Shown here: piece after piece, positions 5,583 through 13,021 of the stretch | How positions within the stretch are numbered: the first letter of the stretch is position 1 | How the letters are laid out: every line of letters starts with the position of its first letter | Origin: Deltaproteobacteria bacterium | Lineage (GTDB): Bacteria; Lernaellota; Lernaellaia; JACKCT01 | DNA length: 64,000 nucleotides | Assembly: GCA_027493875.1 (NCBI GenBank) | Contig: JAOSJX010000012.1 | Span: forward strand, 248,001 to 312,000 | Direction: 5' to 3' | Position numbers and translations under genes: made by a program | Notes under the pieces: generated by a model | Databases searched by the model: none | Told to the model about the DNA's origin: nothing | The model's input: only the letters and a program-made list of their open reading frames with translations

Positions 5583-5762
5583 CCCGCATTTCTCACCAGC
5601 TTTCTCCTACGGCGACGGATCCGCCGGCTACGACTTGCGTTTCGGCCCGCGCCCGCTGCGACGTACTGTTCAAGTACGCCTCGCGTTCGCGGCCCTCCAA
5701 CGCGGCGTCTCGCCTGCCGCCTCCGCCGCCTCGCGACGAAACCCGATGAGAAATGCGGGCTA
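5580..5762. mobile_element. MITE-like palindromic element with TA duplication
   Basis: The ends are near-perfect 16-bp terminal inverted repeats: TAACCCGCATTTCTCA at 5580-5595 and the complement of TAGCCCGCATTTCTCA at 5747-5762, with one mismatch. TA at each outer end fits a target duplication. The exact centre holds the palindrome GTACTGTTCAAGTAC (5663-5677). The two arms are imperfectly complementary along their length, so the whole unit can fold as one long hairpin. There is no ORF of its own. It lies between two convergent genes and supplies the stop codons of both. It could be a Tc1/IS630-type MITE or a bidirectional terminator-like repeat. No second full copy was seen in this window. 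Confidence 0.75.
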
Positions 5763-7573
5763 ATCCTTGCTCAGTTCCTCTTGCACGCGGCCGAGGAGGT
5801 TGGCGGCAATCGAAAACGCCGCGCGCGCGGCGTCCAGCGCGCCGGCCCGGGCGTGGCCCGCCACCTCCGCGAAAACGTCCGTCAACATCCCGATGTCGAA
5901 ATTCGCCGCGGTTTCCGCAATCGCGGCGGCGTGCGTGACGGCGGCACCGAGGTCGCCGGCGTCCAGCGCGTCCCGAAGGCCGGCCTCTTTTTACGCGCGT
6001 TTCGTCCACGAAAAGCCGCGCGAGGTCGCGTACCAACTCGGCGTCGTCGGCGAAGGCGGCTATGAGCGAGGCGCGGTCCACGACCGCGGCCGCGCGCGTT
6101 GACGGCGCCCGTTCTCCGGCACGCGGGATCGGGCCGTCGAGGATGTCGAGCAAGGCGGCGGTTTGGAACGGCCGCGGGAGAACGGCGTCGAATTCCTCCG
6201 TCGGCGTCGTGGCGTCGCCCAAGGCGATCAACCGGGCGCCCGGTTGGCTTCGGCGCAAGGAATCGCGCAGCGCCTCGCCGCCGGACGGCCACGCGGCCGG
6301 ATCGGCGAAGACGATATCCCATCGCGCGCGGCGAAGCTGTTCGGCCGCTTCCTCTTCATCGGCGGCGACCGCGGCGAAGATGCCGTATTTCGCGAGCAGG
6401 TGTTCGAGAATCCACTGGGCCATCGGATTCGGTTCGATCACGAGCGCCCGCGCGCGACCCCGCGTTTCGTCGAGCAGCGAATGGCGCGTGACGATGTCGG
6501 GCGGAGGCGGCCGCAGGCCCGCGGCTGATAAAAGCGCCGACCGTTCGAGAACGGACTCCAACGCCTCGTCCGAATAGGGGGGCGTGAGATAGAAGGAAAA
6601 GCCGATCTCGCGCAGGCGCGCCGCGTCGCCCGGACGCCCGTAGACCGCCAGCAACCCGATGACCGTTGCGTTGAGCCGCTCATCCGCGCGAACGCGCCGG
6701 CCGAGATCCTCGGCCTCTTGCCCCGTCGTTTCCGTCGCGATGACAAGAAGGTGGTACGGCTCGTCCGTCGTTTGAAGCGCGCGATAAGCGGCGTCAAACG
6801 TTTCCTCAACGCGCCACGCGCACGCGTGCCGGCCACAGAGATCGCCGACGCGGCGCAGGGCGGCCGGGTCGTCGCCGGTCAGCAAAAGACGCAATTCCGA
6901 AAGCGTTCCCGGTGCGGCGGCCGTTTCTCCGCGCGGCGCGGCGTGATCGAATGGGAGGGCCAGCGTCATGGTGGTCGACCCCGATTCGCCGGACTGATCC
7001 GTGATCGTGCCGCCGAGGCGGGGGTGCCAACAACGCCAGCAACTGCGCCTCGAGCCCGGTTGCCGCGTCACGATTCTTTGGGGCGTGGTCCGCCGTCACC
7101 GCCACCGCGACGACGACGCGGTTTTCCGTCTCGGATTCAAGCGTGACCTCGATCGGAATGTGGCCCACCGCCGGCACGCCGGTGCGCAGGAGCAGTCCCA
7201 ACGCCTGGCTGAAGCGCGCCGCGTCGCCATAGACGAACGCCGGCACGGCCGGATGGACATCCAGCGTCACCGCGGTGCCGTCGCCCGCGGCGCGGTCCGC
7301 GGCGTTGCGCAGTGCCCGGCGCAGATCGAAGCGCCCGCGCGACACCGGAAAGTTTCCGGCGCGCAGGCGTTCGAGATCCAGAATCTCGTTGAGCGACGCG
7401 ACGACGTCGCGCGTTTGTCCGGCGAGATCGCGCAGGAGCGCGGCGCGCGGCGCGTCGCCTTCCTGCTCGGCGAGGCGTTCCAGCACTTCCAGCGCCGCGC
7501 TGGCCGGCTGGCGGACGCGGTGGCTGAGCGTCGCGAAAAATCCCGCCCGCGGTGTCTTGTCGTTTTTACTCAT
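5760..7573 (-). CDS. Hybrid histidine kinase-like protein with degenerate domains
   Basis: About 604 residues after repairing two frame breaks (near 7015 and near 5990, an extra A). Order: HisKA with phospho-acceptor His18 in LSHRVRQP, a HATPase-like domain (about 75-210), two receiver-like domains (about 225-345 and 360-470) and a C-terminal Hpt-like domain. There is no sensor or membrane segment. The ATPase lacks the N-box Asn and the G1 and G2 glycines. Receiver 1 has no Asp at the acceptor site (LLVIATE). Receiver 2 keeps an Asp (IVFADP) but has Arg in place of the switch Lys. The Hpt-like domain lacks an aligned His. Its start overlaps the upstream gene's stop as ATGA, so it closes that operon. 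Probably a scaffold or regulator rather than an active kinase. Confidence 0.72.
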
Positions 7574-8770
7574 TTCGCCCCCGGGCGCCGGTTCAACAAG
7601 CGTTTCGCCTGTTGCGCGGTGGTGGCCGGAACCTGGCGGCTATGCGCCAGACGGTGCAGATCTTTCGCGTTCAATCGGCCGATGTGCCGCACGACGAAGG
7701 CCATTGGCGTTTTCGGATGCCAGAGAAGATTGAAAGCGATTTCGTAACTTCGTACCCACTCACGGTTGCGGCAAATGGTCGCAATGACGTTTTGCGACGT
7801 CGATCGTTCCTTCACGGCGTCCGCAATTTCGCGCGGCGTGATTCGCGGATTCCGCAAAACGCAATCCTGAATCATTTTGCTGGGGCTCTTGATGAGAAAG
7901 GTCCGCGCTTCCTTGTTGCCGCGCAAAGCAAGCAACAGACGGTCCACCATGGTCATCGTGGCGATGCGTTGGATGAAGGGACGCCGCTCGTCCTCCGTGA
8001 GATCCTCATCCGGGTCGCGCATCAGATCGAAGGCGAAAAGGTCGGGGGTATCAAAATCCTCGGAGAGGATGTCCTCGATGCGAAAGCCGGAGTGCAGCCG
8101 GTCGTCGGGGAATTCCATGGCCTGCGCCGGTTTGCCGGCCGCCGCCGCTTCCTCGCGGCGTTTCTTTTCTTCCGCGCGCGCGGCTTCCGCGGCGCGCGCG
8201 GGCCTCCTCGACGGCGGCCCGTTGCTCGCCGCCGAGATCCTGCGCGTAGGGGTGCCCTTTTTCGATTTCGTAGAAGCGCTCGAGCCGCTCGACGAGATTT
8301 CTCGGCGTCAGCGCGTTGTGCGACAGCCCGTAGAGAATATCCGGGCAACGCAGCAGCGCCTGTTCGTTCTTGCCGACGATGTCGACGATTTCGGGCCGAT
8401 CGGTGCGCGCCGCGAGATGGGCGAGCGTCTCGTCGCGCACTTTGGGATGCAGCGCGACTTTCTGGTAGATGTTCGGATTGTCGTAGCGGCGCGTCGCGAT
8501 GAAGTGGAGGATCTTCGGGCTCAATTCCTGATTGATGCCGACCAGTGTCAGCGCTTCGGGCAGTTCCTTGAGGCTGCGTTTGGCCTCGGTCCGGACGCGT
8601 TCGTCTTTGTCGCCGCTGAGATAATAAAGCGCGGTCAGTAGGTCCGTGGTGCCGAGCGGCACCAGCCCCTTGGCGCACGCGAAACGCTTTTCGACCGGCG
8701 TGTCCGGCGGCAGCGTTTCGCGGAGCGTCGGGCTGAGCTCTTGAAATTCAAGCGCCTGAAAGCGGGCCAT
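7570..8770 (-). CDS. Alpha-solenoid (HEAT-like) cytosolic protein
   Basis: About 400 residues and mostly helical, with repeated 30-40-residue units such as GDKDERVRTEAKRSLKELP and ATRRYDNPNIYQKVALHPKV. The middle section is charged and Ala/Arg/Glu-rich, and a second helical block follows, ending RLLNRRPGAK. No signal peptide or catalytic motif. One frame break lies around 8200. The repeats resemble the HEAT/DUF2336 class used for protein interaction, but I do not recognise a named family. It lies between the HflK-like gene (80 bp upstream) and the degenerate kinase (overlapping stop/start). Confidence 0.6.
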
Positions 8771-8850
8771 GATCCGTCCGGTCGCGAGAGGGTGGGGCAT
8801 GATACCGTAGGCCGGAGAAGCGTCAATGGCGGGCGAACGAAAGAGGCGGA

Positions 8851-9847
8851 TCAGGGCGTTTTCGGCGCGTCCCCCGCGTCCACCGGCGAAGAAGCCGGTC
8901 CGGGCCGATCGATCATGTTGACTTCGATGTCCGGTTTCTGGCCCGGCGCGAGGACGACGACGTTCGCCTCGGGCAATACTTTGCGGATGGTGTCCGTGTA
9001 AAGATCCCAGCGCGTGAGTTCGGGCGTGCGGAGGTACTGATCGAGCACGTGATTGAAACGGTCCGCGGCGCCTTGCGCCAGATGGCGGCGCGACTGAGCG
9101 GCGGCGTCCGCTTCTTCGAGGATGCGGCCCGCCTGGCCGCCGGCGAGGTTGACGACGCGTTCGCGTTCGCGTTCGGCGTCGTTGATGACGCGCGCCGCCC
9201 TCGGCTTTGGCGTCATTGACGTTGCGGAACGCGGCCGCCGCTTCCGCCGGCGGATTCACCGACTGAAGATTGAGCGCGACGAGCGTGATGCCCGCGCCGT
9301 ACCCGTTGAGGCTCGCCTGCGCCTCCGCCCGGGCGTCGGTCTGAATGCCCGCCTTGCCGGACGTGAGAACGTCGTCCACGTTCATCCGCGCGACCGCACC
9401 GACGAGGGCCGCGCGGACCGCCTGATCGACGACGAGTTCCGGCTTTTCGCACGCGAACAGGTACGATCCGAGCCCCGTGATCTTATATTGAATCACGACG
9501 GACAGGTCGATCAGGTTTTCGTCCCCGGTCAGCAGCGAGAACGGCTCGTCGGCGCCGATCTCCGCGCGAAGGACCTCGCCGGTTTTCACCTTCGTAACCT
9601 TCTCGATCCCCCACGGCAGACGCACGTGCAGTCCCGATCCCACGGCGTCGTCCACGAGGCGTCCGAAGCGCTGCCGCGCCGCGGATTCCTCGACGGAAAC
9701 GGCGAAAACCCCCGCGGCGACCGACGCGGCGACGACGAGCGCGGCCAGCGCGAGCAGAGCGCGGCCCTTGTTCGCGCGCAAGAAGACGGCCGTCGCGCGG
9801 ATCGCACGGACGCTGGGCGGCGTCAGGGGGAGATCGTCAGGGGCCAC
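8851..9847 (-). CDS. SPFH/band 7 protein, HflK-like
   Basis: About 332 residues. It starts at GTG 9847, which overlaps the end of the HflC-like gene by 11 bases. An N-terminal transmembrane segment (about residues 30-50) is followed by a band-7 domain with GSGLHVRLPWGIEKV and LTGDENLIDLSVVIQYKI, the typical HflK signature, then a long charged helix (AERERERVVNLAGGQAGRI). HflK and HflC form a membrane cage around the FtsH protease. One frame break lies near 9205. The C-terminus ends in a short Pro/Asp-rich tail. Confidence 0.82.
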
Positions 9848-10715
9848 TCAAATACCTCATCAGGTCCGAGTTCGACTCGATGAACACCGTCGTATCCTTG
9901 TCGACGATGCGTTCGTAGCTTTGGAGCGTGCGGAGCAGCCGGTAAAAATCCGGATCTTTCTTGTACGCCTCGGCGAACACCTTCATCGCGTCCGCTTCGC
10001 CCTGGCCGCGGATCGCCTCGGCTTTGCCGCGCGCGTCCGCCACGATGCGCTCTTTCTCCGCGGCGGCGCGGGCTTCGACCTTCAGCGCTTCCTCCTCGCC
10101 CTCGCTCCGGTACCGGGTGGCGATGCGGTCGCGCTCGGCGCGCATGCGTTTGATGACGCTTGCGCGGTTTTGCGGCGGAAGGTTGAGCCCGTTGATCTGC
10201 AAATCCGACACTTCGATTCCGAAGCTCTTGCGCGCGATGGCGTCGACGGCCTTCGCCACTTGACCGGAGAGCTCGCGGAGTTTGACCTTTGACGCGTCGG
10301 TGTTGATGAAGCTTTCGATCGGCTCGCGGCCCACCGCCGCGCCCATCTCGGACGCCGCGATATCCAGCAGACGCGCTTCGGCCTCCGGCCGGTTCTTGAC
10401 CGTCTGCGCGAAACGCAGCGGATCGTCGATGCGCCACGCGATGAAATTGTCGATGACCACGTTCTTTTTATCCTGCGTCAGCATCTCGGTGGGTTCGTTG
10501 TCGAAAATGAGCAGGCGCGCGTCCATGCGCACCACGGACTCCACGGGCCACGGCCACTTCAGGTGCAGGCCGGGACCGACGGTCCGATCCAGCGGGCGGC
10601 CGAAACGCGTCACGATCGCCGTTTCGGTTTCGTCGATGGTGAATAGCGCGGTGAGCGCGACGAAGAGCACGATAATCGCCGCCGCGCCGGCCAAGATTTT
10701 TGCGATCGGACTCAT
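9837..10715 (-). CDS. hflC: SPFH/band 7 protein, HflC-like
   Basis: Intact, 292 residues from MSPIAKIL. The start at 10715 is preferred over the longer ORF because a GGGAGA ribosome site precedes it and it overlaps the upstream stop as ATGA. One N-terminal membrane helix is followed by a band-7 domain with VTRFGRPLDRTVGPGLHLKW and LTQDKKNVVIDNFIAWRI, then the long helix and C-terminal ADAMKVFAEAYKKDPDFYRLLRTL, all typical of HflC. It should form a hetero-oligomer with the HflK-like product and perhaps with the SPFH half of the fusion encoded upstream. Confidence 0.88.
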   Translation of the reverse strand: MSPIAKILAGAAAIIVLFVALTALFTIDETETAIVTRFGRPLDRTVGPGLHLKWPWPVESVVRMDARLLIFDNEPTEMLTQDKKNVVIDNFIAWRIDDPLRFAQTVKNRPEAEARLLDIAASEMGAAVGREPIESFINTDASKVKLRELSGQVAKAVDAIARKSFGIEVSDLQINGLNLPPQNRASVIKRMRAERDRIATRYRSEGEEEALKVEARAAAEKERIVADARGKAEAIRGQGEADAMKVFAEAYKKDPDFYRLLRTLQSYERIVDKDTTVFIESNSDLMRYLSGP

Positions 10716-13021
10716 GGCGTTTGGTCTCCCTTCGGAGGGATAGGGACATTGGCGTCTTTCCAAAGAACCACGCCGCGGCCCGCGGTGCCGGGGGGCACCA
10801 CGAACTTCTCGCGGCCGGGAAGAACGGACTCCGCCGTTTCGATTTTCAGAAGATGCGACAGCAAATCCGGAGCCACGGCGAAGGCGTCGGACTGGGCGGA
10901 AAAGCCTTGCGACCTCCCGGCGGCGACGGTGCGCGCCCCGTCCGCTTCCGCCGAGGCGGCGGCGACGGTTTTTTCGCCCTGGCCCCGCGCGAGCGGCACC
11001 TCGCGCGCGAGCGTTTCGTGCGCCTGGTGGATACGTGTTTCGCGGTCCTCGCGCGCGCTGGAGACGTCGCGGAACGCGAACACCGCGTCCTGCGGCGGAT
11101 GAACGTCCACAACGTGCACCGAATCGACGCGCACACCGGCGCCCGCGGCGTCAAGGCGTTTTTGGAGGTCTCCGGCGACGAATTTTTCAAGGCCCGGCCG
11201 GTCTTCGGTTACGAGATCGTCGAGCCGCGACCGCGCGACGTACTCGCGCGCGGCGGCCTGCGCGTAGAGCGAAACGATATCGTTCGCCTTGCCGACGCCG
11301 TAGAAAAACGCGTACGGATCGGCCAGCGAATAATGCACGGTGAAACTCACGTCCACGAGATTCTCGTCGCCCGCGATGTACGACGACTCGGCCTCGTTGC
11401 GGTTCATGGCCGCGATGGCGCTATGCCATTGTCCCGGCGCGTTCGACTGCAACAATTGCTTTCGGTTTTCGAGAAGAAAGAGATCCGTCCGGAATCCGAC
11501 GTCGGTTTTGCGGGGATAACGCGTGCGCCACACGTCCGCCCGGCCGACCGGCGCCGGCGGCGCGTAATGCAGCCCCGGCGGGATATCGCGGCGCACGAGC
11601 TTTCCGAAGCGAAATTCGAAAGCCGTCGAATCCGGCGGTACCGTGTAGAAGCCCGAGGCGAGATAGGCGAGGGCGGCCAGCGCGAGTCCGCCGCCGACGA
11701 ACGCCCGGCGCCGCCGTTGCCAGAATGCGCGGCGCTCGTTTGCCGCGGCGTCTTCGGTGCCGCCGAAAAAACCCTCGATGTTGCCGAGAAACTCGCGGAG
11801 GCCCTGGCGGAGGGCGCCGGCTTTGAGGCGCCAGAGGCAAAGCCCGAGCAGGACGATCGCGCTGACCCACTGCAGGTAACCGACGACGCCCTCGCCCGAC
11901 GCGGCGAGTTTCGCGGTGATGTTCCACCCCGTCAGGCCGAGGAAATAGTCCAGCGCGAGACCCGCCGCAAGCGACGTGGCGACGATACTGCCGAGATACG
12001 TGCTGACGAAACGCCGTCCGAAGTGGCGCGTCAAAAGGACGATCGTCGCCGCGTTGGTGGCGGGTCCGGAGAGAAGAAAGACGAGCGCCGCGCCGGGGCT
12101 GAGGCCCTTGGCGACCAAGGCCGCCGCGATCGGCGTGCTGCCCGACGCGCACATGTAAATCGGCACCCCGGCGAGCAGCATGATGAGCATGGCGGGCAGG
12201 CCGGACCCCAAGCCGAGCGCGGCCAGATCGCCGGGGATCGCGACGCCGATCGCTCCGGCGAGCAGAATGCCGACGAGCAGCCAGAACGCGATGTCGTCCA
12301 TCATGATGACGAAGCCGTAGCGGAAAACGCGGCGGAGTATTTGGGGGAACGGCGTGTGCTCCGGCGCCGCGTCTTCCGCCGCCACGGTGGCGCCGTCGCT
12401 CCGAAGCGGTTTGCGCCAGATGTCCGCGATGAACGCGCCCGCGGAACGGGCGAACCCGCCGAAGCCCACCACGTGCGGTTCCGGCGCGGGGGCGTCGGGC
12501 GGCGTCGCGGCCGGCGGCGGCGAATCGTCTTCGGGCCACGCGATGGCCGCAATCCCGGCAACCATCGCCGTGAGAAACGAAGCGAGCGGCCGGGCGATCG
12601 TCATGATCGGCCCGAACATGGCCCATGTCAGCAGGATCGCGTCGGCGCTGGTTTCGGGTGTCGTGATGAGAAACGACAGCCCCGCCGGGCGGCTCGCGCC
12701 CTTATTGCGCAGCTCGATGGACACCGGAACGATGCCGCAGGAGCAGATCGGCAGCGGAATGCCGAAACACGCTGCGGTCGCTACGGCGCCGAGGCCGGTT
12801 CGGCCCATGATCGCGAGCACCAGCCGCCGTGACAGCAGCACGTGGAAAAGCCCCGCCACCAGCAGGCCCAACAGGACGAGCGGCGACGCAAGGAGCATCA
12901 CCTGCCACGATTCCAACAGGATGCGTTTCGCCAAGTCGAGCACGGTTCCCCGAGACGGCGCACAGGATGCGCCCGCCGCCCGCGCGGTGTCAACCGACGG
13001 GGCGGCTCTTCGCTGTCCCAT
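10712..13021 (-). CDS. Permease (ArsP/SO_0444-like) fused to SPFH domain
   Basis: Intact 769-codon ORF. Residues about 25-410 form a multi-pass permease with the motif PICSCGIVPVS, the paired segment YMCASGSTPIAAAL and LSGPATNAATIV, matching the ArsP_1/DUF318 (SO_0444 Cu/Zn efflux) family. A further membrane helix (about 435-455) leads into an HflK-type SPFH domain (about 460-735) containing IAGDENLVDVSFTVHYSL and a C-terminal helix. An alternative GTG start at 12943 removes 26 non-conserved residues. The gene heads an SPFH gene run. The fusion suggests a transporter built into, or regulated by, an HflKC-type membrane assembly. Substrate unknown; metal or metalloid efflux is inference from the permease family. 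Confidence 0.85.
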   Translation of the reverse strand: MGQRRAAPSVDTARAAGASCAPSRGTVLDLAKRILLESWQVMLLASPLVLLGLLVAGLFHVLLSRRLVLAIMGRTGLGAVATAACFGIPLPICSCGIVPVSIELRNKGASRPAGLSFLITTPETSADAILLTWAMFGPIMTIARPLASFLTAMVAGIAAIAWPEDDSPPPAATPPDAPAPEPHVVGFGGFARSAGAFIADIWRKPLRSDGATVAAEDAAPEHTPFPQILRRVFRYGFVIMMDDIAFWLLVGILLAGAIGVAIPGDLAALGLGSGLPAMLIMLLAGVPIYMCASGSTPIAAALVAKGLSPGAALVFLLSGPATNAATIVLLTRHFGRRFVSTYLGSIVATSLAAGLALDYFLGLTGWNITAKLAASGEGVVGYLQWVSAIVLLGLCLWRLKAGALRQGLREFLGNIEGFFGGTEDAAANERRAFWQRRRRAFVGGGLALAALAYLASGFYTVPPDSTAFEFRFGKLVRRDIPPGLHYAPPAPVGRADVWRTRYPRKTDVGFRTDLFLLENRKQLLQSNAPGQWHSAIAAMNRNEAESSYIAGDENLVDVSFTVHYSLADPYAFFYGVGKANDIVSLYAQAAAREYVARSRLDDLVTEDRPGLEKFVAGDLQKRLDAAGAGVRVDSVHVVDVHPPQDAVFAFRDVSSAREDRETRIHQAHETLAREVPLARGQGEKTVAAASAEADGARTVAAGRSQGFSAQSDAFAVAPDLLSHLLKIETAESVLPGREKFVVPPGTAGRGVVLWKDANVPIPPKGDQTP

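Follow-up and report, generated by a model that had tools for sequence, protein, structure and literature searches.

Why should a metal permease be covalently joined to an HflK-like protein? The question is raised by one gene in the window, i.e. the whole stretch of 64,000 nucleotides that was analysed. An earlier note had described this gene as a single intact open reading frame (ORF) linking an ArsP/SO_0444-like permease, an extra helix and a band-7 domain, followed by two further SPFH genes, an alpha-solenoid gene and a 'degenerate kinase'. The gene and its surroundings comprise the following features:

10712..13021, minus strand: fusion gene, 769 aa, SO_0444/ArsP-type permease plus TM helix plus HflK-like SPFH domain
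11834..12910, minus strand: permease half, residues 38-396 (NCBIfam NF033936, CuZnOut_SO0444)
12734..12748, minus strand: ICSCG motif of the permease, within PLPICSCGIVP (sequence)
10796..11734, minus strand: HflK-like half, residues 430-742, with N-terminal TM, SPFH domain and long C-terminal helix (TIGR01933, AlphaFold, Foldseek)
9837..10715, minus strand: hflC (TIGR01932, 206 bits, cut-off 134)
8851..9847, minus strand: second hflK-like gene, K2 (Band_7 3e-20; frameshift at about 9200-9207)
7570..8770, minus strand: alpha-solenoid (HEAT-like) gene (weak HEAT_2; frameshift between about 8225 and 8115)
5760..7573, minus strand: histidine kinase-like gene with C-terminal receiver/Hpt-like region (HisKA 1.4e-5, NCBIfam kinase matches)

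ORF inspection, Pfam and NCBIfam confirmed the described architecture. The frame starts with ATG and runs through 769 codons with zero internal stops. Pfam places ArsP_1 (PF03773) at residues 43-358 (E 3e-40) and Band_7 at residues 460-669 (E 1.7e-15) of the same protein, and such fusions recur in relatives. The permease half scores 329.3 bits against NF033936 (cut-off 300), covers positions 1-348 of the 351 in the model and has both its CSC motif and its GPATN loop intact. In the case of the other half, the TIGR01933 hflK model matches residues 458-742 with 125.2 bits and thus fails to reach its equivalog cut-off (159.4). This score, together with a clade of its own (see below), marks the fused SPFH half as HflK-like and not as an HflK orthologue. 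The 'extra helix' corresponds in the AlphaFold model to an HflK-type N-terminal TM, H426-455; an N-terminal TM helix is a feature of any HflK.

A simple explanation for such a gene would be an assembly artefact, in which an indel removed the stop between two adjacent genes. Indel errors are indeed present in this assembly, as frameshifts in the neighbouring genes and in ftsH show. However, the same fusion ORF is unbroken in G001, from the window's family (58% identical), and in G004, from the same class (42%), with the junction in the same place, and more than 90 other loci carry fusions with other pumps, isolates such as Rhizobium metallidurans DSM 26575 included. The stop or frameshift between the halves that the earlier note had named as grounds for rejecting the fusion is thus absent, and the survey described below shows linkage where the note had considered that homologues might always be two unlinked genes. 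Conservation in relatives rules the artefact out for practical purposes; its probability is next to nil.

The genes following the fusion are tightly packed. The hflC ATG overlaps the fusion stop codon by 4 bases (ATGA), and K2 starts with a GTG at 9847, inside the 3' end of hflC, so that the two further SPFH genes with overlapping starts and stops are as the earlier note had described them. A tblastn search with the G001 orthologue locates a change of frame in K2 at 9200/9207, the solenoid gene aligns with its G001 orthologue in two frames (56% and 54%), and the kinase gene is frameshifted near 7020 and 6000, its G001 orthologue likewise aligning in two frames. Altogether at least four frameshifts fall in consecutive genes within window positions 5700-9900. 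Because the G001 orthologues of K2 and of the solenoid gene are uninterrupted, and because ftsH of the window's own genome is also split between two frames (G000:C1:116673-118413), the breaks in K2, solenoid and kinase genes are probably indel errors of the assembly. Thus, the solenoid and kinase genes are present as claimed, but the kinase looks degenerate most likely because assembly errors have broken up a histidine kinase gene. Both genes are also seen in G001, but they are absent from the shared neighbours of the wider locus set and were therefore not counted as part of the system.

To place the window gene in a broader frame, 84,980 named species genomes were scanned with the HflK part. 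The query was a four-row alignment, as a six-row alignment was too diverse and a single-sequence query matched nothing. The scan returned 80 loci from many phyla. Transporter halves were typed with models built for this analysis, and representatives were checked with Pfam. Overall, at least 96 transporter-HflK fusions were identified in many phyla; counted by partner and including the window, there are 46 with cation diffusion facilitators (CDF), 26 with ArsP/SO_0444 permeases and 22 with P1B-type ATPases, plus two further fusions. In Pfam, the same HflK domain sits on a CDF (PF01545) in G003 and G005, from the window's class, and in the more distant group represented by G030. The P1B-type halves consist of E1-E2_ATPase plus HAD over about 660 aa and come mostly from Acidobacteriota, and the ArsP/SO_0444 fusions come from Rokubacteria, Planctomycetota and others. 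As named in the sequence records, the carriers belong to at least 8 phyla and include cultured strains. In a separate draw of 386 genomes, picked for kinship and diversity and not for the fusion trait, the fusion is present in at least 26 genomes of about 16 families, one of them (G347) counted by open-frame length only. The fusion reported in the earlier note is therefore real, but what had looked like a single permease case belongs to a modular system spread over many phyla.

No fourth transporter type was found; long open frames with atypical lengths of 816-1052 aa proved to be fusions with ArsP, CDF or P1B. A 650-aa frame in G031 was rejected as a new fusion, its HflK lying behind apparently non-coding sequence. 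A tblastn search for plasmid-borne copies gave distant matches, largely annotated as plain HflK. In L096:5161-6984, an in-frame stop alone separates the P1B and HflK frames, and the P1B part is already broken; we read it as a decayed or mis-sequenced fusion. L040:6418-8142 (minus strand) encodes an SO_0444-like permease whose N-terminus is extended by another type of membrane domain, about 230 aa long and without Pfam assignment, and by its sequence appears as a second kind of fusion within the SO_0444 family.

The neighbourhood survey suggested by the earlier note returned the same trio. The order [transporter-HflK]-HflC-HflK is kept in every checked locus whose contig extends far enough. Two more SPFH genes follow the fusion in 68 of 73 loci; of the remaining five, three have contigs that end, and L054 and L104 have an HflC-like ORF as the next gene. 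Where HflK and HflC are encoded as a pair only, they are of the ordinary kind and have no transporter attached. Other neighbours are less constant. A parvulin-type PPIase adjoins the trio in 23 loci, nearly all of CDF type, and is usually the next gene downstream (large PpiC/SurA-type examples are L052:8902-11028 and L100:2-1723), a possible link to a periplasmic client or chaperone. A two-component kinase lies near the trio in 22 loci, and copper genes (CopC/CopD, SCO1, DUF305) are close to it in a few. Some operons have a fourth SPFH gene upstream, as in Bradyrhizobium (L048:3179-5229), Rokubacteria (L097:434-2524) and G090 (L157:7766-8713), and in L048 and L097 an FmdA/acetamidase-type gene stands between this upstream SPFH gene and the fusion. 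A small conserved, apparently single-TM protein without a Pfam match comes after the trio in ten P1B-type loci (e.g. L115:8838-9413).

Important insight can be gained from the tree of the HflK domains, which was calculated with IQ-TREE under LG+C20. In it, all fused HflK domains group together in a single clade (support 99/97), apart from the HflK encoded by the third gene. Within this clade the transporter partner has changed at least four times; the exact number is unsure because some branches are long. With AU-test groups defined by partner type and not taken from the tree, a single clade was rejected both for the ArsP fusions (p = 0.0002) and for the CDF fusions (p = 0.00007). In the case of Bradyrhizobium L048, a CDF fusion is nested in the Rokubacteria ArsP fusions with a support of 100/99. 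Its operon and that of Rokubacteria L097 (ArsP) are alike, with the order SPFH, FmdA-type amidase, transporter-HflK, HflC and HflK, and the transporter alone differs. This pair is the clearest pump swap in the set.

At the residue level, almost all transporter halves that are complete keep the catalytic motifs of their families. CSC and GPATN are kept in the fused permeases, the former in all those checked with the N-terminus covered. CPC, DKTGT and GDGxND are kept in all 14 complete fused P1B ATPases, and neither an HMA domain nor a CxxC motif was detected near their start. In P1B fusions such as L053, L056 and L061, the CPC lies in TM6 and the last helix is of the type HQ(I/L)(A/S)SFxVMxNSLRLL; to our knowledge, this combination fits none of the usual P1B subclass signatures. 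Most fused CDFs have HxxxD in both TM2 and TM5, four deltaproteobacterial CDF fusions have no HxxxD motifs, and the Bradyrhizobium CDF fusions have only DxxxD, in TM2. A cytosolic C-terminal domain was not detected on the fused CDFs.

The predicted structures agree with these assignments. In the AlphaFold monomer of the window protein both halves are confident (mean pLDDT 78.5; pTM 0.52), the HflK half showing the SPFH strands at 458-512 and a helix at 644-714. The best PDB matches of this model in Foldseek are the E. coli HflK/C structures 9cz2 (4e-11) and 7vhq (2e-10). In the model of a CDF fusion, the six TM helices match YiiP with an rmsd of 2.6-2.9 A in the best matches, and the HflK TM and SPFH domain come after TM6. 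It is important to add that inter-domain confidence is low in the AlphaFold monomers (pTM 0.52 and 0.48), and the placement of the domains relative to each other is uncertain.

What could hold such different transporters on one kind of HflK? We know of no common fold and no common energy source for ArsP/SO_0444 permeases, CDFs and P1B-ATPases. What they have in common is limited to transition-metal substrates and a C-terminus able to lead into the N-in HflK helix, which is why the dome must, in our reading, matter for the metal. Since the fusion is conserved, involves three families and is followed by the cage genes where the contig extends far enough, transporter and SPFH assembly are likely to act as one complex, a pattern otherwise hard to explain. 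The association that the earlier note had deduced from the covalent link is thus supported by the conservation of this link and by its recurrence in three unrelated families of metal transporters; that the transporter is housed in, or gated by, the cage would be a further step.

Our main reading, with a probability of roughly 0.6, is that a metal transporter forms one of the subunits of an HflK/HflC-type SPFH cage and is tethered under its periplasmic dome. In detail, the transporter-HflK protein would co-assemble with the adjacently encoded HflC and second HflK, and its TM and SPFH domain would take the places of HflK within a dome on the periplasmic side of the cytoplasmic membrane. For this orientation, the positive-inside rule gives only a weak signal, with more K/R before than after the HflK TM in just 56 of 94 fusions. 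The transporter half would then sit within the membrane patch enclosed by the dome, and by gene replacement one cage chassis has been fitted with an SO_0444/ArsP permease, a CDF antiporter or a P1B-ATPase. The common element would be the cargo, a transition metal ion probably of the Zn/Cu class, and not one transport mechanism. Most likely, the ion would be exported from the cytoplasm into the dome lumen, where it could be kept from the open periplasm or handed to a client. Co-assembly, periplasmic orientation, metal identity, transport direction and release into the lumen are steps that we infer. Points that speak against this reading are the low inter-domain confidence of the monomer models, the lack of a recognisable metal-regulator site upstream of the fused operons, and the CDF fusions in which the HxxxD motifs are missing or reduced to a DxxxD in TM2. 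Taken as a whole, the recurrence with three families suggests that metal pumps operating inside a protein dome form a widespread machine that has so far gone undescribed. Its fullest form, a modular organelle-like device whose interchangeable pumps move ions into or from an enclosed chamber and not the open periplasm, we put forward tentatively, with the odds somewhat against it.

A more modest role of the SPFH part would be just to gather the transporter in a membrane microdomain, or to protect it from, or offer it to, FtsH; a closed compartment would then be functionally unnecessary. Such a role would be in line with the literature on E. coli HflK/C, which modulates FtsH and organises the membrane, and with the FtsH-HflKC assemblies and the stomatin-bound aquaporin-1 in the PDB. 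The window's genome also has an ftsH gene, but on another contig and unlinked to the trio. Moreover, clustering leaves unexplained why two accompanying cage subunits are present wherever this is checkable, and why the cargo is chosen from three metal-transporter families with no other cargo found. We regard a scaffolding or stabilising role as unlikely, though as one of the two main rivals of our reading.

A second alternative concerns what the complex is for. Under Zn or Cu shortage, it might import or re-route scarce metal, the dome concentrating periplasmic metal over an importer or feeding metal to client proteins. This possibility is brought up by P. aeruginosa, where three SPFH genes, PA2437-2439, lie in the cluster of hmtA, a P1B-ATPase reported to import Zn/Cu, and are induced 9-14 fold upon znuA deletion (PMC4542158). 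The same genes are raised in Zn-depleted cells (PMC11761036), and Zur binds the PA2439 promoter (PMC8531726). With a similar operon that responds to a lack of zinc and contains an ATPase reported to import, the export direction of our main reading can be questioned. However, the likeness of the Pseudomonas operon to the fused trios is one of gene content, and homology between them is putative: the operon combines a P1B-ATPase with three SPFH genes in one metal-regulated cluster, but HmtA is a separate protein and the gene order is different. The importer claim for HmtA has been called unconfirmed in a review (PMC10393844), and export is the known activity of the CDF and SO_0444 families. A search for Zur, MerR, ArsR and CsoR consensus boxes in front of the fused operons gave nothing convincing, and no Zur-like box was among the results. 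In the class of L083, no hmtA-type operon was found and more P1B fusions were found instead. Altogether, metal allocation under shortage appears unlikely, but it is the other main rival of our reading.

PaFlo5-7 is the only three-SPFH operon that has been described in P. aeruginosa (PMC13086221); presumably, it is PA2437-PA2439. The SPFH papers make no mention of a metal link of these genes, and the fused trios offer a lead toward one. In a wider sense, it has been difficult to say what SPFH cages are for, since their cargo tends to be weakly bound and hard to capture. In the fusions, the gene itself specifies the cargo, which offers a direct test for the idea of an SPFH dome around a transporter. 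They also suggest what many genes now annotated merely as permease or HflK might do.

Among the closest known systems is the E. coli HflK-HflC cage with FtsH (7vhq, 7wi3, 9cz2), which shares with the fusion an HflK-type TM, SPFH domain and long helix, and has its hflC partner next door, as in the fused trio. In contrast to E. coli HflK, the fused HflK belongs to a separate subfamily and carries a transporter covalently at its N-terminus, and the operon has an additional second HflK and no ftsH link. On the transporter side, the permease half of the window passes the cut-off of the SO_0444 family (NF033936) and has its motifs. In this family, Cu/Zn efflux is known only for SO_0444, which protects Shewanella from Zn and Cu stress, as judged by mutant fitness, and lies in an operon with a ZntR-type regulator, with an SPFH part unmentioned (PMC3219624), whereas the fusion has an SPFH half. 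The CDF fusions superpose on the TM domain of YiiP, most of them with HxxxD in the same two helices, but they continue after TM6 into an HflK-like domain and not into a detectable cytosolic C-terminal domain. In aquaporin-1 bound to human stomatin (9zd2, by its entry title), an SPFH assembly likewise holds a membrane transporter, as proposed for the fusion, but the contact is non-covalent and the cargo is not a metal transporter. In the open-licence literature no HflK or SPFH protein fused to a CDF, P-type ATPase or permease was found, an absence that is not proof, and neither Hinderhofer 2009 nor the 2026 paper on Pseudomonas SPFH proteins mentions a transporter fusion. The components as such are already known, from SPFH cages that enclose membrane proteins to the SO_0444 permeases, CDFs and P1B-ATPases; new against the literature found are the covalent fusion, the trio operon with exchangeable pumps and its breadth, and there is a real chance that the fused trio represents a new kind of compartmentalised metal transport.
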